Shown: positions 18,130 to 34,228 of the stretch, one piece after another
How positions within the stretch are numbered: position 1 is the first letter of the stretch
How the letters are laid out: every line of letters starts with the position of its first letter
From: a virus
Direction: 5' to 3' (one strand)
Virus record (IMG/VR): IMGVR_UViG_3300042566_000069
Span: 1-35,290 of that record
Length of the DNA stretch: 35,290 nt
Notes under the pieces: generated by a model
Databases searched by the model: none
What the model was told of the DNA's origin: nothing
Seen by the model: the letters and a program-made list of their open reading frames with translations, nothing else
Translations under genes and position numbers: made by a program

Positions 18130-21100
18130 TTATCCACCTGATGATAATTCACCTGTGTTTAAGATACGAACCGGAACATAGATGAATTCAGCTGCCTTAA
18201 CAGGCTCAACTGCAACATCAATCCACAATTCATTTCTATCTATACGAGCCGGTGTGTTATTACTTTCGTCACAAACAACCAAGTAATCGTATAGACCACG
18301 TTTAGCAACTAAATCAACTAGCAATGTTTCAACAACACCAGCGATTTGATTACGTGTCAATGCATCGTTAGGTTCAAACACGAATGGTCTGCAAGCTAGT
18401 GTCAATTGACGACGGATGTAAGCAATTAGACGAGCTACGTTAGTTCTGTCAAGAGCACTTGAACTATTGAAACTTGTCTTATTACCATAGTTCAACAATC
18501 CAATACCTGTAAAGAACACTAATGGGTTGATGAAGTTGATATACAATACATCACGAATACCTATACGTGTCTTAATTGTCTGGAACTCACCGGTTGTACG
18601 ATTCAAGTAACCAATGTTAGTAGCATTGTCAATGTTACCGCGGCGAGTACCTGCAGCCGCTAACCATGGATAAGAAACAGTATCATTACGTAAGAATGTA
18701 CGCAACATCATGTGTGATGCAGGAACAGCAACTAAGTTACCTGATAAGTCAGGAGCGATACCACTTGGATAGAATAGACCCATATAAGTATTACGAGTTA
18801 CACAACCTTCTTCACCTGTGCTTGTTGCACCTGCGGCGTTAGTAGCCCATGCTTGAATATCAGTAGCCTGATCAGGTAGACCTAATGGTGTATCACCAAT
18901 AATATAACCTGTTTCGCCACGGTCTGCATTCAACACAACCATGTTAGGTTGCAATTCTGGATAGTTAGGTGTAGCCATCAAGTTGAAGAAGTTATCTTCA
19001 TCACGAATTGCCAAGTTAGTATCAATTGCTGAACGCAATGCTTCAACTACCATAGCACGTTGTGCCTTACGACCCATGAACGGTGAACCATTAGATTGTA
19101 GACCGCTTACTGATACCCATGCATCTTGTTGAGCAGGAATAGTTTGATCCGGGAAAGTAGCTGAATTGAAATAGTTAATACGATACTGCTTGACGTTATA
19201 ACCTGAACGGCGTGTATTGAATAATAACATACCATTTGGATACAATGATGATTCAGGTGCATCTAAGTCTAGATAATTACTATCTAGTAATGAAGCAATT
19301 GTCGGGATAGGATCATCTGCAGGATTTACTGTACCGGATGCTGCCCAACGTGCATCAGCAAATAGAACACCACTTGAACTTGTTTGGTCAGCGTTATCAA
19401 TTAGTACCCACTGATCTACTCCTGTTACAGATTCCCAACGACTGATTATAGGATAGTCTTCTAAGTTAGCAGTACTTACCCAGATATCACCGTATACTAG
19501 TGCTGTACCATCTGATTGTGTAGTAGGTGTACTTGCACTTATGATTGGACCAGCAGGATCTGTTGTATTGGAACCAGTTGATGAAGGGAAACCAGTACTG
19601 TCATAGTTTAGAGTACCGTAACCATTCCATTGACCATTGTAGTTAACCATAATGTCAACTTGGTCAACTACTGAGTAGAACCAGTTAGTGTTATTAGCTG
19701 GAGCAACTGCTGGGGCGCCTTCATTAGAGATATAAGTGAAGTCTACCCAGTTTGAAAGTTGAACGCTGTAATTAGCAGGTGCTGTTCCAGACTTATATGC
19801 TACTCCGGTTACTGCACCAGATGAGACAGAAGTTATAGTTACAACTAAATCATTTGCAGTAGTTGCCCCACCTAAAGCCGTACCCAAGAATGTAACAGTA
19901 TCACCCACTACATAACCAGTGCCGGCTGCAACAAATGTTGTCGGAGCAACAAGATATACGCCATTAACTGTAGTTACGTTAAGTGTTAATCCTGTACCTG
20001 AAGTGTCACCCTGTGTGCTGGCTGCTGCCGGTGCAAATGTTAAGGTGACAGATGGTCCTGTTTTAGTACCTGTAGTAGAGCCAACTACAAATCCTGCAGT
20101 AGCTAAACAACCATTGCTATACCCAGTTGTAGTATTAATATCACTGATAGTAATTTCGCCACCTTCAGTATGAACTATTTGAATAGCACCGTTAGTAGTT
20201 ACAGACGCTTGAGTATAAGGTATATTTGCGGCAGCCCATGCTGTTACAAATCCAGTAGCCGATGCATTGTCATTTACAGTAACTGTATATGTAGCTGACA
20301 ATGTTGAAGAGCCAGGAGTTGATACGTTTACAGCTAGCCCATAAGGACCACTAGAGAATGAAGGGTTGGTTGCTGTACCGGTTACAACTGTAGGTCCTGT
20401 AGCAAGTCTTTCCCACAAGTATACCGGACTTGATAAGAAGTTTAAGTTAAATTTATATTGTGCGTAAATTGTGTTAGCAGGTATAGCACTGCCGCCTGTA
20501 GGATCTAATGCACTGTTAGCTGCCGCATCAGATATATAATTACCTACATTTTTAGATACCCAAGATGCAGTAGTAGTATTGTATCGTGATACGTCTAAGT
20601 TCAAACCGTTTCCTGCACTACCTACTTTCATCCAAACTGAACCAGTTGGGCGTGGATATTGTTGACTTGATGTCCACAATGGCATTTCTGCGGCTGTTCC
20701 CCATACAAGAGCAGGTTGATAATAGAAACCTACTGTAATACCCAAATCATTAAGCACTGTTCCAGTACCTGATACAACGTTAATATATGCGCTTGGACTA
20801 CCTATGTTCTGTGCAGAGAATATGCAAAGTTTGCCGTTTCTTACTGAAGCTGATAGTTGAGTAATATCTAATGCATTAATTGCGGCTGCGACTCCGGCTA
20901 TTGTATTATTAGTTGACGCAGGAACTGCAATAGTCGTGCTGAATCCACCGTTAATATTAAGAGTGAAGGTGTCACCTGCTGTCAATGATGTTGGTGCATT
21001 GTCACTAGTGATAGTTGGCAAATCGTCAAGCCATGCACTAGAACCTAGATTTTCCCAAATATTGTTAGTAGTCTTATAGAAGAACTGTTTGCCATTTGGT

Positions 21101-21693
21101 GCTGAAGGTATAGTATCAATTTCAATTGCATTTACTGCATAATCGCCGATATTACCTATACTAGACAACGGCACACCACTTGATAAATCATCAGGATCAG
21201 TAATGACTACTGGAACTTGTTCAGTGAACTTTCCTGTTGTTGTATTGAATGCAAAAATACCCCATGTTGTGTTAGTAGTATCTAACCAATAAGTACCGTT
21301 AGTTGGTGCACCAGTTGGGCGACCTGTTTGTCCTACTAAGCTTGCCAAATCAATGTCAGCACGTAGAACATAGCAACGATTTGTAACGCCTAATAGACTG
21401 TATGCAGCCAATAGACCATATTCGTTAAGTTCATAACCCTGAATCGGTGTACCGTTCGTAGTAGTATAGAAGAATGGTGTACCGTAAAGAGTAACCAAAT
21501 CACGTTGACTCGTAACTTGATAGAGTTTGTTTGCGTTTGCCGCGGTTGTAGCTTGTGCTACACCTGTACCAGTAGCGTCAGCTTTATTCTGTGCTGTAGC
21601 TAATACTACTAATGGGACAGAACTAGTTGGGGCTGGTAAGTACTGACTTTGGTCAATGATCGTGACTTCTACGCCTGGTGATGTTAATGCCAT
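18130..21693 (-). CDS. 18: Contractile tail sheath protein gp18, greatly enlarged
   Basis: Forms the contractile outer tail sheath. The N-terminus (MALTSPGVEVTIIDQSQYLP, then SSVPLVVLATAQNKADATG) and the C-terminal 350 residues (RQLTLACRPFVFEPNDALTR, then VAVEPVKAAEFIYVPVRILN) are typical of the sheath family. At 1187 aa it is nearly twice T4 gp18 (659 aa). The extra 600-700 residues lie in the middle, about 120-830, and look like several small beta domains. One (FTLNINGGFSTTIAVPAST, then AAINALDITQLSASV) resembles the embedded domains of flagellin and hook proteins. Others carry VAAGTGYVVGDTVTFLG and repeated short Trp-containing segments. Such domains would decorate the tail surface. The ribosome site is AAAGGAA, with an ACTAAATA octamer and a small hairpin upstream. 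Confidence 0.93.
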   Translation of the reverse strand: MALTSPGVEVTIIDQSQYLPAPTSSVPLVVLATAQNKADATGTGVAQATTAANANKLYQVTSQRDLVTLYGTPFFYTTTNGTPIQGYELNEYGLLAAYSLLGVTNRCYVLRADIDLASLVGQTGRPTGAPTNGTYWLDTTNTTWGIFAFNTTTGKFTEQVPVVITDPDDLSSGVPLSSIGNIGDYAVNAIEIDTIPSAPNGKQFFYKTTNNIWENLGSSAWLDDLPTITSDNAPTSLTAGDTFTLNINGGFSTTIAVPASTNNTIAGVAAAINALDITQLSASVRNGKLCIFSAQNIGSPSAYINVVSGTGTVLNDLGITVGFYYQPALVWGTAAEMPLWTSSQQYPRPTGSVWMKVGSAGNGLNLDVSRYNTTTASWVSKNVGNYISDAAANSALDPTGGSAIPANTIYAQYKFNLNFLSSPVYLWERLATGPTVVTGTATNPSFSSGPYGLAVNVSTPGSSTLSATYTVTVNDNASATGFVTAWAAANIPYTQASVTTNGAIQIVHTEGGEITISDINTTTGYSNGCLATAGFVVGSTTGTKTGPSVTLTFAPAAASTQGDTSGTGLTLNVTTVNGVYLVAPTTFVAAGTGYVVGDTVTFLGTALGGATTANDLVVTITSVSSGAVTGVAYKSGTAPANYSVQLSNWVDFTYISNEGAPAVAPANNTNWFYSVVDQVDIMVNYNGQWNGYGTLNYDSTGFPSSTGSNTTDPAGPIISASTPTTQSDGTALVYGDIWVSTANLEDYPIISRWESVTGVDQWVLIDNADQTSSSGVLFADARWAASGTVNPADDPIPTIASLLDSNYLDLDAPESSLYPNGMLLFNTRRSGYNVKQYRINYFNSATFPDQTIPAQQDAWVSVSGLQSNGSPFMGRKAQRAMVVEALRSAIDTNLAIRDEDNFFNLMATPNYPELQPNMVVLNADRGETGYIIGDTPLGLPDQATDIQAWATNAAGATSTGEEGCVTRNTYMGLFYPSGIAPDLSGNLVAVPASHMMLRTFLRNDTVSYPWLAAAGTRRGNIDNATNIGYLNRTTGEFQTIKTRIGIRDVLYINFINPLVFFTGIGLLNYGNKTSFNSSSALDRTNVARLIAYIRRQLTLACRPFVFEPNDALTRNQIAGVVETLLVDLVAKRGLYDYLVVCDESNNTPARIDRNELWIDVAVEPVKAAEFIYVPVRILNTGELSSGG

Positions 21694-23236: not shown

Positions 23237-24022
23237 TTAGCCTTGGACCCAAGTTAGTGGTTGACTGTAATCAACATAACGTTTCAGTTCATCAATCAAT
23301 TGCTCTTGCAACTTAGCTCCTTCAGCTTTCATTGCTGTACCGTTTAACGTAGTTCCTCCACCTGGGCCAGCGATAGAACCAAACTTTTCACGTGCTTCTC
23401 CGATAATAGTCTTTAATATAGCTAATGTGAAGTCACCAATCCAAACGCCTGCGCCTGGGTCTTGTAATAGTACTTCTTCTGTTCGTTGGACGTCAGCCCA
23501 AATAAGTACTCTCTCACCAGTGCCTTTAGGGTCACGTACAATTCTAAGAACCTTAGTTACAGGATCAAATGTGTATACTACGTAGCCGCCGAACATACGT
23601 GCAGCCAATTCAACATAACCTGCATAGAAATCATATGTTGCCATACCACCTGCGTAGTTATAGTTTAATAGATATGTGTTTAAGATAGCTGAACTGAAGG
23701 GGTCAAATGAACTAGAACCGGGGCCTGTTTCTAATCCCACTGTTCTACGGAATAGACTACGTACATTAATGAATTCTTGTGGTAGGGTATATGTATCCAC
23801 ATTCTTAACGATAGTCATAAGTGTATATGATTCCGCAGTTGCATTCTGTGCCCTTTGTCTATAGGTCTTTATTGCGTAGTTGTATGCTGCCTCAAAGTGC
23901 TGAGGGTCAAGCTCTAAATCAATAATACCATCTCCTAAGCGGAGTCTTAAGTTATTAAATAATAACTCTTTTAATTGGTCTAGGGTTAATCCATTTGGAG
24001 TAGAAAGAATGTTAGTTGCCAT
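23237..24022 (-). CDS. 13: Neck protein gp13
   Basis: Part of the neck ring that closes the packed head and joins the tail. It has 261 aa (T4 gp13 is 309). Features fitting gp13 of T4-like phages are the LNTYLLNYNYAGGMATYDFY region, YVELAARMFGGYVVYTFDP, VLRIVRDPKGTGERVLIW, and the very characteristic LAILKTIIGEAREKFGSIAG followed by GPGGGTTLNGTAMKAEG and an end helix QLIDELKRYVDYSQPLTWV. A GATAAATA motif (24045-24052) lies 22 bases upstream. Its partner gp14 is coded divergently at 26610. Upstream lies the 432-base non-coding interval. Confidence 0.83.
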   Translation of the reverse strand: MATNILSTPNGLTLDQLKELLFNNLRLRLGDGIIDLELDPQHFEAAYNYAIKTYRQRAQNATAESYTLMTIVKNVDTYTLPQEFINVRSLFRRTVGLETGPGSSSFDPFSSAILNTYLLNYNYAGGMATYDFYAGYVELAARMFGGYVVYTFDPVTKVLRIVRDPKGTGERVLIWADVQRTEEVLLQDPGAGVWIGDFTLAILKTIIGEAREKFGSIAGPGGGTTLNGTAMKAEGAKLQEQLIDELKRYVDYSQPLTWVQG

Positions 24023-24044
24023 ATATATAAGTACCTGTATCTTA

Positions 24045-24052
24045 TATTTATC
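24045..24052 (-). promoter_or_regulatory. Late-promoter-like octamer (GATAAATA) for gp13
   Basis: GATAAATATAAG on the minus strand lies 22 bases before the gp13 ATG. It gives gp13 its own late start, separate from the early-type operon upstream. Confidence 0.7.
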
Positions 24053-24082
24053 TGGCTAATGTGTTTAGATATTCTTAGGCAA

Positions 24083-24450
24083 TGGCGAGTAGATATGAAA
24101 TCTACAAGCCAAAAAACATTCTTGAGGAACTTAGGCGATGATGAATTAAAAGATTACAGTGGAGGATTGTCTATGTCGCACCGACCCCGTGAAGGGACTT
24201 TTCCGTATTCGCTGTTAAAGTGTAGGTATATTCATCAGGATTCTACACACAGCCCAGGCCCTCTATCGCAATTACTATGACCTGGCATACTATCAACTAT
24301 TAAGATATGGGAAACGTTTCTACGCAGGGGGTAGACGTTTAAGCATCAAAGGGTAGTCCCATAAATTTGTGTTGGTCGCACTTCTACCGTCACTACACGA
24401 TGAGGACGGAATTTCGCCGCATTTCTAGGTAGCGGAACCTATAGACCAAT
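24083..24450. ncRNA. Candidate structured non-coding RNA, unclassified
   Basis: The 24023-24454 interval (432 bases) has no convincing gene, and 24181-24420 is about 47% G+C (112 of 240 by my count) against about 35% in nearby genes. Helices seen: 24083-24111 (TGGC/GCCA plus GTAGAT/ATCTAC with a 2x2 internal loop); a closing helix 24166-24174 with 24441-24450 (9 bp, one bulge); nested 24182-24186/24374-24378 and 24194-24199/24355-24360; hairpins 24220-24248, 24254-24285, 24312-24340 (10 bp, two-base bulge) and 24387-24409; and a possible H-type pseudoknot 24417-24420/24432-24435 with 24426-24430/24437-24441. The short helices could be chance; the two 10-bp hairpins, the nesting and the G+C rise are the real support. 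Strand is undecided: as minus it would be read out of the 26501 operon. I could not match tmRNA, RNase P RNA, tRNA or a group I or II intron. Confidence 0.5.
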
Positions 24451-24454
24451 ATAA

Positions 24455-24682
24455 TTAATCGGTTAGTATATCAAATACTGTACCGTATTCGTATCTAGCC
24501 CAATCATCCATGTCAACATATGTGTTTATTTTACGTCGGTACACGGTCTTTAGCCATACTCGATTGTTATGTACTTTGACAGGATACCAAGAAAACCACT
24601 TTTTCCAAGGCCCTATGATATGTTTTCTAGGAATAAATCCATAGCTAGGTGGAGGTGGAGCACGGTTGTAGCCCATTACCAT
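24455..24682 (-). CDS. Small basic aromatic hypothetical protein (75 aa)
   Basis: Not recognised. A proline run (APPPPSYGF) is followed by a Trp/Tyr/Lys-rich core: KKWFSWYPVKVHNNRVWLKT, then VYRRKINTYVDMDDWARYEY. The core looks like a small beta domain with a basic face. There is no membrane segment. The ATG at 24682 lies 1 base after the preceding stop; a second ATG at 24676 is equally possible. It is the last gene of the operon that begins at 26501, with the structured-RNA candidate right after it. Confidence 0.7.
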   Translation of the reverse strand: MVMGYNRAPPPPSYGFIPRKHIIGPWKKWFSWYPVKVHNNRVWLKTVYRRKINTYVDMDDWARYEYGTVFDILTD

Positions 24683-24909: not shown

Positions 24910-25344
24910 TTAGATATCGCCTTCTTTACGATTCTCTGAATAATGTGCGTCAAATGTGCCACCGGGGTAGCGACTTTCTAGTTTACGCACGTTTTCGTCA
25001 ATAACTTCGTTAGGGTCAATGTTCAACGCACGACAAGCATTGATCCAGTACCACATAACATCGCCGAGTTCACGTTTCATGTGAAAGACTGCGGCGTCAT
25101 CAAGAGGTTTGCCTTGGAAGATGATCTTCTTGGGCACTTCGATGAACTCGCCACTCTCAGCCGCTAAACCGAAACATGCTGTGATAAGCAACGGGACGTT
25201 GATATCAGGACCATGTGTGCTTGTTGTTGAGTCAAAGTTGCCGTCGAGTTCATCGAGGCGACTCATAAATGTAGTCAAGTCATTGCTTGCGTGGCTTGTT
25301 ACAGCCTCTACAAATTGTTTGTATTTGTTTAAATCAATATTCAT
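24910..25344 (-). CDS. mazG: MazG-like nucleotide pyrophosphohydrolase
   Basis: A member of the all-alpha NTP pyrophosphatase superfamily that would hydrolyse (d)NTPs to monophosphates, or alter alarmone or nucleotide pools during infection. The metal site is visible: E63-x-x-E66 in GLAAESGEFIE and E92-x-x-D95 in MKRELGDVMWYW, at the usual 26-residue distance. The tail has NVRKLESRYPGGTFD, typical of phage MazG-like proteins. It is 144 aa, a single-domain form. Its start overlaps the stop of the 385-aa gene as TAATG, so it is coupled to it and driven by the sigma70-type promoter at 26531-26559, which suggests early expression. Confidence 0.9.
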   Translation of the reverse strand: MNIDLNKYKQFVEAVTSHASNDLTTFMSRLDELDGNFDSTTSTHGPDINVPLLITACFGLAAESGEFIEVPKKIIFQGKPLDDAAVFHMKRELGDVMWYWINACRALNIDPNEVIDENVRKLESRYPGGTFDAHYSENRKEGDI

Positions 25345-26596: not shown

Positions 26597-26604
26597 GATA
26601 AATA
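26597..26604 (+). promoter_or_regulatory. Late-promoter-like octamer (GATAAATA) for gp14
   Basis: GATAAATAACTAT runs into ATG at 26610, only 5 bases after the octamer. No ribosome site fits between them. It lies back to back with the sigma70-type promoter on the other strand. Confidence 0.65.
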
Positions 26605-26609
26605 ACTAT

Positions 26610-28331
26610 ATGCCAAGATTATCACTTTACCACCCAGTAAAATCAAACGATTACCGATTCTTTGATAAAACCATTTCGCAAATGTTTACTGCGGGTGCTA
26701 CCGACCTGTATGTCCATAAATATATGGGCCCTACTAATCAGGGCCCTAGTAACGATTATACACAACCTGAATACGCTGAATTAAATCCTACTAATATACA
26801 AGATTTGTTATTTCTAGAGAATAGAGATAGAACATATGATCCAAACGTATTTAGATTACGTGGACATTACAATGTACAGAATTTAGACTTTGATTTAAGT
26901 CAGTTTGGATTGTTCTTAAATAACGACATTATCTTTATTACCGTTCATTATAATGATATGATTGACTTAGTGGGTCGTAAGTTAATGGTAGGTGATGTTA
27001 TTGAATTACCACACTTGTTAGATTACAATCCATTAAAAGAAACTATACCAGTTGCATTAAAAAGATTCTATCAAGTAACTGACGGGAACTATGCAAGTGA
27101 AGGTTTTAGTCCAACTTGGTTTCCTCATTTATGGCGTATTAAATGTGAACCGTTAGTTGATAGTCAAGAGTTTAGTCAGATTCTTAATGAACCTATTAAT
27201 CAAGATAATTATTTAGGCTTATGGGATAAAGATAAAGTATATCCTGCAGGATATTCTATCAGCTATGGTGATAAAAATTATATCTCTAAAATTGAAGTGC
27301 CTGCAGGTACATATCCACCCGATGAAACATATTGGCAGTTAGATACTGCACAAGATTTAAGAGATATATTATCTACGTATAATAAAAACATTGACATTAA
27401 TAATGCTAACTTAGAAGAAGCAAAACGTAATCTACCTAAAGCAGGTTACGACCGTAGTAAATTATATATTGTTCCTACATACGGTGAATTCTCAACTAAC
27501 AATACATTGTCTGGTAAGAATAATCAACCTGCACCTCCGGTAAATGTAAACACAAATTCAAACGGGGCCCCTATTACAGTCACTGGTACAGTTGCTATGA
27601 TGCGCAACCCTAAGTACAAAAATCCAAGTCCTGTCATTCGTATACCAAAAGAAGCTATAAAAAGCATTTGGGATATGACGGCTGATGCTGACTTCTCAGT
27701 AGATCCAATTGATGCGTTTGTGCAAATGAGTTTAGAAAGCATGGAGCTTGCACCAGAAGCTATTGGTAATGGATCAGGTCCTCTACAAGGTGATCGTATA
27801 CTAGTTGCTCAATCATTGGGCGTTATCACTGGACCGTACGGTACTGCTGACAACACATATGCAACAGCAGACCAGAACCCTGAATTACCGGGTTTTACCG
27901 GTACTGTGTCTACACAAATGGACTTTAGAGCAGACTGTGATCCTGCGTATCAATACATTGCACGTTCAAGTCCTCGAACATTTGGATACACAACAGGTTA
28001 CTTATCAGGTGACGGCACAGCACCCAATGGATTCCCAACTGGCGCTGGAATTGCATTCCCACAGAACCCACAAGTTGGTGACTATTTCTTACGCACTGAT
28101 TACTTCCCGCAACTGTTATATCGTTGGGACGGTAAACTTTGGGTTCGTATTTCTGAGAACGTTAGAACAGATACAAGCTTTAACGCATTAAATACTTCGC
28201 AGTTGTCCGGCTTCATAAATAATGAACAAGAGACAGTATTGACTAGTGGAACAACAGTACCACAGTCTCAACCATTGTCAAGCATATTACAGTTAACGCC
28301 TGATGCTATACCACCGAGAACTAATTTATAA
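26610..28331 (+). CDS. 14: Neck protein gp14, extended form
   Basis: Forms the neck with gp13 and receives the tail. The N-terminal 190 residues match gp14 of aquatic T4-like phages: MPRLSLYHPVKSNDYRFFDK, LYVHKYMGP, LFLENRDRTYDPNVFRLRG, LDFDLSQFGLFLNNDIIFIT, VGRKLMVGDVIELPHL and ASEGFSPTWFPHLWRIKCEP. At 573 aa it is over twice T4 gp14 (256 aa). The additional part includes WDKDKVYPAGYSISYGDKNY, like carbohydrate-binding or chitin-binding repeats, and a C-terminal FPQLLYRWDGKLWVRISENV. These extra domains may sit on the outside of the neck. The stop overlaps the gp15 start as TAATG. Confidence 0.75.
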   Translation: MPRLSLYHPVKSNDYRFFDKTISQMFTAGATDLYVHKYMGPTNQGPSNDYTQPEYAELNPTNIQDLLFLENRDRTYDPNVFRLRGHYNVQNLDFDLSQFGLFLNNDIIFITVHYNDMIDLVGRKLMVGDVIELPHLLDYNPLKETIPVALKRFYQVTDGNYASEGFSPTWFPHLWRIKCEPLVDSQEFSQILNEPINQDNYLGLWDKDKVYPAGYSISYGDKNYISKIEVPAGTYPPDETYWQLDTAQDLRDILSTYNKNIDINNANLEEAKRNLPKAGYDRSKLYIVPTYGEFSTNNTLSGKNNQPAPPVNVNTNSNGAPITVTGTVAMMRNPKYKNPSPVIRIPKEAIKSIWDMTADADFSVDPIDAFVQMSLESMELAPEAIGNGSGPLQGDRILVAQSLGVITGPYGTADNTYATADQNPELPGFTGTVSTQMDFRADCDPAYQYIARSSPRTFGYTTGYLSGDGTAPNGFPTGAGIAFPQNPQVGDYFLRTDYFPQLLYRWDGKLWVRISENVRTDTSFNALNTSQLSGFINNEQETVLTSGTTVPQSQPLSSILQLTPDAIPPRTNL

Positions 28332-29701
28332 TGGCACAATTTTTCTACGACAATCAAATTCGCAGATTCTTACTACAGTTTGCAAGAATTTTTAGTAACT
28401 GGCAAGTAACTAAAGGAAAAGATCCGGCGGGAAATGATATTTTAGTTCGTGTGCCTGTTATGTACGGTGATAGTAGTCGCCAGGCTTCAACTATTTTAGC
28501 CAACAACAGTGCAAGTAATTTACCAAGTGCGCCGATGATAACGTATTATATCACTGCGTTAGAGTATGACCAGCGTAGAACGCAAGATCCTACATTTGTG
28601 GACAGAATTAACGTGCGCCAACGTTCATACAATCCAGATACCCAACAGTACGAGCAAGTTCAAGGACAAGCATTTACAATTGAAAGATTGATGCCAGTAC
28701 CCTACACATTGCGATTGACAGTTGACTTTTGGACTACTAACTATAATCAAAAACTAGAGTTGATTGAGCAACTAGGTACATTGTTCAACCCTTCACTAGA
28801 GATTCAAAGCACGGACAACTTCATTGATTGGACATCATTGTCTGTCGTATACCAAGATGGTCTTACTTTTACTAGCCGTACAATACCACAGGGTACAGGA
28901 AATCCAATTGATGTAATGTCTTGGAAATTTTACATACCTATCTGGTTAAGCACATCTAGTAAATTGAAGAAGATGGGTGTTATTGAAAAGATTATTGCTA
29001 GTATCTACAAAGGAAAAGCACTTGATGATATTCAAGATGATGATTTATTGTTAGGTACTCGTCAGAAGATTACACCATACGGATACAAATTATTGTTGAT
29101 TGGCAACAGTCTACAGTTATTACCTGCAAATGAAGCATTCAATCCACCGAATGAGGACTTAGAATTGCCCGCTGCACCTAACACAAGTCTATATTGGACT
29201 AGTTTGTTAAACGTATACGGTACTATCAAACCAGGCATTAGTCAGATATGGTTGCAAAATCCATTTATGACTACTGAAATCGTAGGTACTATTGTTCCTG
29301 ATCCAGTAGATGATAGATTGTTAATTTTTAGCATTGACCCGGATACACTACCGCAGAATACATTAGACCCGGTAGATAGCGTTATCAATCCATTATTAGT
29401 TGGTCCCAATGCAGGATTGCCTGGACCAGTCAATGGTCGTAGATATTTGATAGTAGAGTCTATTGGATCAGAAGGCGATTCTACAGTAGCATGGGGTGAC
29501 TTGGTTGCTAATGCTAATGATATAATTGAATATAGTACTGGATCTAATTCTTGGAGTGTTGTATTTGATAGTCAAGATGCAACCGATATAGAATACGTCA
29601 CAAACTTGACGACAAACGTACAGTATAGATTCACTGACTCTATGTGGATGAAATCATACGAAGGATGGTATGACCAGGGAGATTATTCTATTGTTATCTA
29701 A
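28331..29701 (+). CDS. 15: Tail sheath stabiliser / proximal tail protein gp15, extended form
   Basis: Caps the tail and locks the sheath end at the neck. The start MAQFFYDNQIRRFLLQFARI then FSNWQVTKG and ILVRVPVMYGD parallels T4 gp15 (YFYNSSFRRYATLMGDLFSN, then FIRVPITYAS). The region MPVPYTLRLTVDFWTTNYNQ to VMSWKFYIPIWLSTSS corresponds to the gp15 core. The 456 aa compare with 272 in T4; the additional C-terminal 180 residues hold an unfamiliar beta domain with GPVNGRRYLIVESIGSEGDS and WGDLVANANDIIEYSTGSNS. Translation is probably coupled to gp14 through TAATG. The Nudix gene follows after a separate late-type octamer. Confidence 0.88.
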   Translation: MAQFFYDNQIRRFLLQFARIFSNWQVTKGKDPAGNDILVRVPVMYGDSSRQASTILANNSASNLPSAPMITYYITALEYDQRRTQDPTFVDRINVRQRSYNPDTQQYEQVQGQAFTIERLMPVPYTLRLTVDFWTTNYNQKLELIEQLGTLFNPSLEIQSTDNFIDWTSLSVVYQDGLTFTSRTIPQGTGNPIDVMSWKFYIPIWLSTSSKLKKMGVIEKIIASIYKGKALDDIQDDDLLLGTRQKITPYGYKLLLIGNSLQLLPANEAFNPPNEDLELPAAPNTSLYWTSLLNVYGTIKPGISQIWLQNPFMTTEIVGTIVPDPVDDRLLIFSIDPDTLPQNTLDPVDSVINPLLVGPNAGLPGPVNGRRYLIVESIGSEGDSTVAWGDLVANANDIIEYSTGSNSWSVVFDSQDATDIEYVTNLTTNVQYRFTDSMWMKSYEGWYDQGDYSIVI

Positions 29702-30457: not shown

Positions 30458-31713
30458 TATGCACTAGCAATTTGTACCAATGAATATGGTTGACCTGCAT
30501 CAGCATTAGCGGCTGCGGCTGTATTGAACGTTACGTATGCTGGTGTAGCATTAGCAAGTACAATGTTACCTGTAGCAACTGGACCTGATGTAGCAGTAAA
30601 CAACTCAGCAGTGTGGTCAGAAAGACTCTGAACTGTTTGAGTAGCACTATTAGCATATGTAGCTAGAACACGCATTGTATTTGGTGTTAACGCTGTATTA
30701 GCAACGTTAGCCATATAGCACTGTGCAGTTAAACCGCTAGTAGCACCTGTTACAAGATACTTCTGCTTACCTTTTTGACGAACAATAAATCCAGCTTCAT
30801 CATTTGCATAAACAAATGCGGCGCCAGTTGAGGCAACTGCGGCGTTTGCAACTAGTTCAACTACATCTTGTTGTGCATCAGGTGTGCCCGTAGCATCGGA
30901 CAAATCAACTTCTGCTCCAGCTAATGTTGATGAAACAGTAAATGCAGTTGCGTTAGCAATTGCTTTAACAAAATAAACTTGACCAGATACTAGACCACCC
31001 AAGTTAGCAGTAAATCTTACTGTACCATTAGCAAACAATGTCTGAGCATTACCGGTAGTACGAATGATGTTACCAGTGTTGTTTGTGTTAGCAACAGCAA
31101 TTGCTGTCAAGCCGCCAACGGTGTTAGCAAAACCTATCGTAGTGTAGTCTGTACTACCGTTGATGTTTGCACTTGCAACTTGAATAGCAGAACCTACACT
31201 TAGTGCGTTTGCCAAATCAGTACCAATACCTGTTACATATGCAGTGTTTGTAGCAGAGTACAACGTACCTGTACCATTAACACCAATAGCAACTTGTGCC
31301 AATACTTGTTTACCAATAATAGCAGTGTTACCACCAACTACACTGTATGTGTTAGCGTTTGTTGCTGGGAAACCTGTTCCACCAATTGGATTGTTGAAAT
31401 ATGCATCAACTACACCAACAGAAGCTGATACTGAACCACCTGTTGTATCAGTTAGTGTAACTGCTGTACGAGATGTATTTGCACTTAAGTCAGTAGCAGA
31501 TGCGGTAAAGTTATTAGCATCAATAACTGTTAAAACGTAATATGTTGTATTAGCTGTTAGACCACCGACTGTAGTAGCTACTGCGAATGGCATACCTGCA
31601 ATAACACCATTGGTTGTAAGACTTTGAGATACAGTAACAGCACCTGTTGCCGCTGTTGTATCAGTGATTGTTAAGACTGCTTGAGCCTTTGCGATTTTTA
31701 GAGGACGTCCCAT
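30457..31713 (-). CDS. Virion structural protein (418 aa) with repeat modules
   Basis: The opening MGRPLKIAK and the segment EAGFIVRQKGKQKYLVTGAT to TAQCYMANVAN recall structural proteins of marine T4-like phages; I place it among virion surface or decoration proteins. Two copies of the shared beta module are clear: GGLTANTTYYVLTVIDANNF with TASATD (about 48-75), and GGLVSGQVYFVKAIANATAF with TVSSTL (about 230-260). Composition is rich in Ala, Thr, Asn and Gly, with few charges. The ribosome site AAAGGAAAA is strong. The 85-base leader carries three hairpins behind a GATAAATA octamer, a layout not seen for other genes here. It is coupled to the XhlA-like gene by TAATG. Confidence 0.8.
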   Translation of the reverse strand: MGRPLKIAKAQAVLTITDTTAATGAVTVSQSLTTNGVIAGMPFAVATTVGGLTANTTYYVLTVIDANNFTASATDLSANTSRTAVTLTDTTGGSVSASVGVVDAYFNNPIGGTGFPATNANTYSVVGGNTAIIGKQVLAQVAIGVNGTGTLYSATNTAYVTGIGTDLANALSVGSAIQVASANINGSTDYTTIGFANTVGGLTAIAVANTNNTGNIIRTTGNAQTLFANGTVRFTANLGGLVSGQVYFVKAIANATAFTVSSTLAGAEVDLSDATGTPDAQQDVVELVANAAVASTGAAFVYANDEAGFIVRQKGKQKYLVTGATSGLTAQCYMANVANTALTPNTMRVLATYANSATQTVQSLSDHTAELFTATSGPVATGNIVLANATPAYVTFNTAAAANADAGQPYSLVQIASA

Positions 31714-31735
31714 TTGTTTTTCCTTTGATAAAATT

Positions 31736-31790
31736 AGCGGGTTCTAGCCGCTACGCAGTGGGTAACTGCATAAACTCTCAGAATGAGAGT
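31736..31790 (-). promoter_or_regulatory. Three consecutive hairpins in a late mRNA leader
   Basis: On the minus strand, in transcription order: ACTCTCA/TGAGAGT (31774-31790, 7 bp, 3-base loop), GCAGT/ACTGC (31755-31769) and AGCGG/CCGCT (31736-31752). They lie between the late octamer at 31799 and the ribosome site near 31720. They could stabilise the message or control translation. Confidence 0.6.
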
Positions 31791-31798
31791 GTATGATG

Positions 31799-31806
31799 TA
31801 TTTATC
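31799..31806 (-). promoter_or_regulatory. Late-promoter-like octamer (GATAAATA)
   Basis: GATAAATACATCAT on the minus strand, 85 bases before the ATG at 31713, heads the hairpin-bearing leader. Confidence 0.7.
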
Positions 31807-34220: not shown

Positions 34221-34228
34221 TATTTATC
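34221..34228 (-). promoter_or_regulatory. Late-promoter-like octamer (GATAAATA) for the second fibre
   Basis: GATAAATAAGTG on the minus strand, 27 bases before the ATG at 34193 and 18 bases past the nuclease stop. It separates the late fibre operon from the nuclease gene. Confidence 0.7.

Follow-up and report, generated by a model that had tools for sequence, protein, structure and literature searches.

The interval between gp13 and mazG

The 35,290-nt stretch analysed here (the window), a 35-kb record, belongs to an uncultivated virus, a lake-water giant phage, and it raises the question of what occupies 432 noncoding nucleotides (24023-24454) bounded by the start of a gp13-like gene and the stop of a 75-aa ORF. 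A first-pass annotation, made from the letters alone, had proposed an unclassified structured RNA at this site and suggested that it could be a ribozyme, a regulatory RNA or a 3' element of the early operon. We asked whether the interval holds a conserved RNA, from which strand it is read and how it might act.

The gene set of the window is that of a T4-like phage with a contractile tail (tail sheath, tail tube, clamp loader, dNMP kinase and a gp13-like head-tail adaptor). Matches to its gp13 in cultured phages are all below 60% identity, the best ones come from jumbo phages, and contigs related to the window run up to 364 kb. The tail sheath protein has 1187 aa (18130-21693), which is long for a sheath, and a second protein of 456 aa (28331-29701) matches tail-sheath and sheath-stabiliser families. 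The genes that border the interval lie on the minus strand. Downstream is the gene for the T4 gp13-like head-tail adaptor Ad2 (23237..24022; phrog_211, E 4e-22); upstream are the 75-aa ORF (24455-24682), a member of the MazG gene group, and a gene for a MazG-like pyrophosphatase (24910..25344; phrog_229, E 1e-44; Pfam PF03819).

As annotated, no convincing gene covers 24023-24454. The raised GC content was also borne out (46.7% over 24181-24420), with flanking genes at about 40% rather than the 35% first given. No conserved reading frame was found in the RNA interval: even the longest open frames do not exceed those of shuffled sequences, and the spacing of conserved anchors varies across the family in all three phases. 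A plus-strand ORF (24059-24280) whose apparent ribosome site reads GGAGGATTGTCTATG was rejected as coding because its frame is not conserved.

Homologs and distribution

A BLAST search of the interval against contigs fetched via gp13 and MazG yielded about 20 relatives, and this set was extended by two IMG/VR pattern scans and then by a profile search. The profile search identified 117 IMG/VR loci with 68 distinct sequences, 61 of them complete, and wider viral scans added one further member (L271). Neither 50,697 cultured-phage records nor a plasmid collection yielded a homolog. Among 84,980 bacterial and archaeal genomes, one scan returned three pattern matches, about the number expected by chance, with the rest of the RNA absent.

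The RNA is single-copy in records of 19-364 kb. In relatives without it, mazG and gp13 are about 65 nt apart and the GATAAATA box of gp13 is kept; no copy was found elsewhere in their loci or in four long records among them. The clean empty site, together with the lack of a copy elsewhere, indicates that the RNA is a unit which some phages have and others lack.

Covariation and overall fold

Compensatory change in homologous intervals had been set beforehand as one of the tests on which the proposed RNA should stand or fall, and these intervals do show it. Our main statistics come from a 52-member alignment (A2) and 79 proposed pairs. These pairs are 94.7% paired, and 59 of the 79 show changes on both sides, against a mean of 38 and a maximum of 47 in 500 shuffles; the covariation score for the same structure and members is 0.441, compared with no more than 0.193 in shuffles. 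When column pairs were ranked by corrected mutual information, helix pairs came out at the top, and the proposed structure holds 16 of the 20 and 27 of the 40 most strongly covarying among 75,855 column pairs. An independent count over the central domain (A3) found both-side change in 23 of 37 pairs, a level reached in none of 500 shuffles.

Sliding the partner strand by one to three columns lowered pairing from 94.7% to 36-44%, a control that flatters the structure because the same sequences had served to derive it. The held-out test is free of that flaw: a covariance model trained without six members from outlying contexts recovered all six (E <= 3e-20). These six scored 103-140 bits with the covariance model and 58-91 bits with a sequence-only model, a gain that is indicative only because the two models differ in information content. 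The data leave next to no doubt that 24023-24454 holds a real conserved structured RNA.

The conserved RNA spans about 383 nt (24068..24450), a block found in the 117 loci. It is described here on the minus strand, assigned from GNRA loops (see below), with its 5' end near 24450 and its 3' end near 24068; all helices that follow are given in this sense. The fold comprises about 18 helix segments, with at least three pseudoknots, and is laid out in three parts: a 5' domain that contains an H-type pseudoknot, a hairpin stack in the middle and a large 3' domain. Three pseudoknots are supported, namely PK1, P1 and the H-type PK2.

The 5' domain is closed by P13 (24444-24449 with 24372-24377), in which all six pairs changed on both sides. 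The first-pass annotation had joined 24166-24174 to 24441-24450 in a 9-bp helix that does exist in the window, but the family supports P13 instead. The H-type pseudoknot that it had suspected near the end does exist and covaries, with both-side change in four of four pairs of P15 (24432-24435/24417-24420) and three of four pairs of PK2 (24437-24440/24427-24430). The P14 hairpin (24405-24409/24387-24391) is 95% paired, with both-side change in two of five pairs. Next along the RNA, P9 (24358-24363/24306-24311; both-side change 6/6) encloses P10 (24335-24340/24312-24317; 2/6) and P11 (24331-24334/24320-24323; 4/4), and the hairpin formerly listed at 24312-24340 is conserved as P10 and P11.

The 3' domain is built around two hairpins, P7 and P8, whose loops pair across with distant strands. 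P8 (24281-24285/24254-24258 plus 24279/24259) is 98% paired, with both-side change in four of five pairs, and its nearly invariant loop (24260-24278) contains one strand of the long-range pseudoknot P1, which pairs 24266-24270 with 24083-24088 and leaves 24085 bulged. P1 covaries, pair 24083/24270 being TA in 34 and AT in 26 of 61 members and pair 24086/24268 CG in 58 and TA in three. A further hairpin had been annotated at 24083-24111. The window does contain it, but the outer GGC/GCC pairs of this hairpin are not conserved across the family, in which an invariant GGCGA pairs long-range with 24266-24270 instead of closing that hairpin. P6 (24250-24253/24211-24214) is followed by P7 (24242-24248/24220-24226), changed on both sides in all seven pairs. 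The P7 loop (24230-24237) pairs with 24139-24146 to form the 8-bp PK1 (P2), which is 98% paired in the 52 members, has both-side change in four of eight pairs and carries multiple compensatory changes in L237, L240 and L245. P3 (24199-24202/24148-24151; 4/4) encloses P5 (24194-24196/24186-24188; 3/3) and P4 (24179-24183/24157-24161; 4/5), the latter with a nearly invariant 17-nt loop (24162-24178). Towards the 3' end, a hairpin at 24089-24106 is flanked by two direct repeats.

PK1, P7, P8, P9 and P3 are the longest and best-covarying features, and none of them was among the helices first listed. Most of the local helices on that list are present in the window, but several are replaced by others in the family.

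Strand assignment

The RNA very probably lies on the minus strand, in the same sense as mazG and gp13. It is the GNRA loops that decide the assignment, and two other signs point the same way, namely the loops of an adjacent double hairpin and upstream late promoters. Twenty members carry an extra hairpin with a covarying stem between P12 and P8, at the position of a linker in the window (24286..24296) that lacks it. Read on the minus strand, its loop is GUAA in 14 members, GCAA in four, GAAA in one and GCGA in one, and thus fits GNRA in 20 of 20; read on the plus strand, it would be UUAC, UUGC, UUUC or UCGC. About a dozen members (L101, L186, L096, L231, L232, L248, L169, L237, L240, L244, L245 and L247) have a double hairpin just behind the RNA in the minus sense, with GAA/UGA(A) internal loops on that strand and, in some, a cUUCGg loop. 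Late promoters of the form GATAAATA stand upstream in the minus sense in two other gene contexts, those of L245 (at about 115 nt) and L244.

The double hairpin may belong to the RNA as a 3' domain or serve as its terminator, and the lineage of the window does without it. We rejected it as a general terminator, since its descriptor matched only beside the RNA among the loci examined.

The first-pass annotation had folded the plus strand, and the same RNA read from that strand is an alternative to which we assign a small probability. In its favor, the plus strand of the window folds better than shuffled sequence (z = -2.35) and the minus strand no better (z = +0.34), and G-A and A-A positions adjoining P9, which are non-standard, fit the plus strand more naturally, a point against the minus assignment. 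However, the mean over 25 members is -1.18 for plus and -1.09 for minus, so the strands fold alike over the family and energy does not identify the strand; folding energy, a test that the first-pass annotation had suggested, proved a weak guide. The GNRA loops, which appear in all 20 extra hairpins on the minus strand only, also make the plus-strand fold probably wrong. Watson-Crick covariation is blind to strand and gives no answer here, and intermediates are near parity, with 47 G-U against 61 A-C, so that neither strand is clearly favored. Consensus-structure energy, RNAalifold, loop composition and sigma-70 scans did not decide the strand either.

Gene contexts and transcription

The commonest position of the RNA is between mazG and the T4-gp13 gene. 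Elsewhere in the family the downstream gene differs, encoding proteins of 664, 166, 68 or 208 aa, a member of a 142-147-aa family or a 279-aa protein. Because it is found as a unit in these other gene contexts, the RNA is not specific to the mazG operon. In the window, the late promoter of gp13 (GATAAATA, 24045..24052, minus) lies behind the RNA, and several other lineages likewise have a late-promoter-like box after it.

These contexts bear on a cis-acting leader, riboswitch-like or protein-sensing, that would control the downstream late gene. Such a leader would fit the observations that the next gene on the minus strand is always co-directional with the RNA and that this gene is gp13 in most members. 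However, the promoter of gp13 itself separates the RNA from the gene, the downstream gene changes with the lineage, and relatives without the RNA retain both gp13 and its promoter. The constant position in one gene's mRNA that characterizes a cis-regulatory leader or riboswitch was not found. A leader specific to one gene is unlikely given the varying downstream gene and the late-promoter-like box behind the RNA, and we regard a cis-acting leader in general as unlikely too.

Members of the gp13 clade often have a hairpin with a T-run directly behind mazG, next to the RNA, and no promoter is visible at this site, which weighs against the stand-alone transcript proposed below. Transcription as a 3' element of the early operon, one of the original suggestions, is a possible mode of expression, but the RNA also occurs as a unit in other gene contexts.

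Seven GATAAATA boxes are present in the window, at 26597 on the plus strand and at 34228, 31806, 24052, 18093, 14900 and 11818 on the minus strand. Most of them immediately precede a gene or gene group, and we read these boxes as T4-like late promoters. The gp13 box of relatives often falls between the two arms of an inverted repeat, TTTCCTGATAAATACAATATCAGGAAAC, and in L197, L211, L223 and L229 short tandem repeats of approximately GGGTTNTNTCTAYGGGTT (plus strand) separate the RNA from the gp13 promoter.

Direct repeats and proposed function

The element at the 3' end of the RNA (24070..24127, minus) contains two direct repeats, which read ATTCTTAGG (24071-24079) and ATTCTTGAGG (24118-24127) on the plus strand. 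The copies change together: positions 24120/24073 are AA in 47 members and CC in five, and positions 24122/24075 are AA in 42 and GG in six. Across members the repeat takes the forms ATTCTT, ATTACT, CTGCTT, TCTTCT and CATGC, with both copies shifting in concert. This suggests a common partner for both copies, and the repeats probably form a double site that a single putative partner binds, either a protein or another RNA. Pairing of the repeat motif with the gp13 start region was considered, as a 9-nt complementarity is visible by eye in the window, and was rejected because it is lost in the relatives examined.

The RNA recurs as a unit among different late genes, in some lineages with the double hairpin attached. 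Since the downstream genes differ and several have a late-promoter-like box after the RNA, we consider it likely that the RNA is stand-alone, a noncoding RNA of about 380 nt that would be made from the minus strand. It would be produced during infection, in some lineages at least from a phage late promoter, and its action would be in trans, by a compact RNA or an RNP and not by the leader of a gene. Both co-changing repeats would bind the one partner, and the GNRA hairpin of 20 members probably adds a tertiary contact. The independent transcript, late timing, action in trans and partner binding are all steps that we infer. A scaffold or RNP mode of action in particular is a tentative proposal, to which we give slightly less than an even chance. 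For a stand-alone, trans-acting ornate RNA that works like GOLLD or ROOL but is neither, we put the chance at about one half.

A trans-acting antisense regulator could also account for part of the data. The P4 loop (minus ACAUAGACAAUCCUCC) contains CCUCC, complementary to a Shine-Dalgarno sequence, and the loop, the repeats or both could pair with phage or host mRNAs; the loop is nearly invariant, and the repeats change as if matched to one partner. However, invariance of a 17-nt loop could equally reflect tertiary contacts, and the size and number of pseudoknots go beyond what a simple antisense RNA needs, so we think this function unlikely.

Catalysis, by self-cleavage or otherwise, is improbable as well. 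Compact catalytic folds typically have multiple pseudoknots and unpaired segments that hardly vary, as this RNA does, but neither strand resembles an Rfam ribozyme or intron family, and nothing that we found points to the ribozyme first suggested in particular. A structural role in the virion or the packaging machine, similar to that of the phi29 pRNA, would suit a site among late structural genes and beside a neck-protein gene, with terminase within a few kb in other lineages (L244 and L237), but it is highly improbable because the RNA is missing from related jumbo phages that share this neck gene, and packaging thus does not generally need it.

Comparison with known RNAs

At gathering scores, Rfam 15 (4227 models) gave no match over the RNA in the window and 18 family loci on either strand, and permissive searches of three members returned chance-level matches only. 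The GOLLD and ROOL covariance models did not match. Group I or II introns, RNase P and tmRNA were rejected, as no intron, RNase P, tmRNA or ribozyme covariance model matched; ARAGORN likewise detected no tmRNA and no tRNA gene in the window or in 15 family loci, and the RNA has no conserved reading frame. Matches to C/D-box snoRNAs at 24130-24175 were rejected as far below cut-offs, and the GATGATGA segment there is a paired pseudoknot strand. The literature searched contained no description of this RNA; published candidate lists outside Rfam were not compared sequence by sequence.

With covariation and no Rfam match, the proposal of an unclassified structured RNA stands. By sequence and structure the RNA appears to be a new class, unlike any Rfam family, and we claim newness for the class and not for the function. 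Our overall reading, held at about even confidence, is of an undescribed class of large pseudoknotted RNA from uncultivated jumbo phages, independent of the RNAs of hosts and cultured phages, that would serve as a late trans-acting machine or scaffold with a co-evolving double binding site. Few large phage RNAs have elaborate conserved folds, and for most of these no function is known. The deep alignment, clear pseudoknots and strand assignment make this class directly open to probing and imaging, and its patchy presence among close relatives, with an empty mazG/gp13 site, would permit simple comparison and deletion tests given a cultured host.

The phi29 pRNA, of about 174 nt, is likewise a structured RNA encoded by a phage, and the RNA described here lies near virion and packaging genes. 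It is, however, more than twice as long, has no Rfam match and is absent from close relatives. GOLLD is a large pseudoknotted phage RNA that rises during lysis and forms RNA-only cages (PMC12286853), and ROOL, an ornate RNA also carried by phages, has several pseudoknots and is not known to have a protein partner (PMC12286853). Like GOLLD, our RNA is a large pseudoknotted phage noncoding RNA of unknown function, but it has about 380 nt compared with more than 800 nt, does not match the model and sits among late structural genes. It shares with ROOL a phage-borne ornate fold with several pseudoknots, but is smaller and has no Rfam match. The association with tRNA genes that is typical, although not universal, of GOLLD and ROOL is absent here in the loci tested.

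Another structured RNA of the same phages is the freshwater-2 RNA (RF02980), a separate 84-nt cis-regulatory family that lies behind a late promoter and whose model does not match the RNA described here. Its copy in the window (31711-31790, minus; 70.3 bits) is just behind the GATAAATA promoter at 31806 and ends at the start of a 418-aa ORF. It was also found in L190 and L238, and these occurrences tend to place that orphan family in T4-like freshwater phages.
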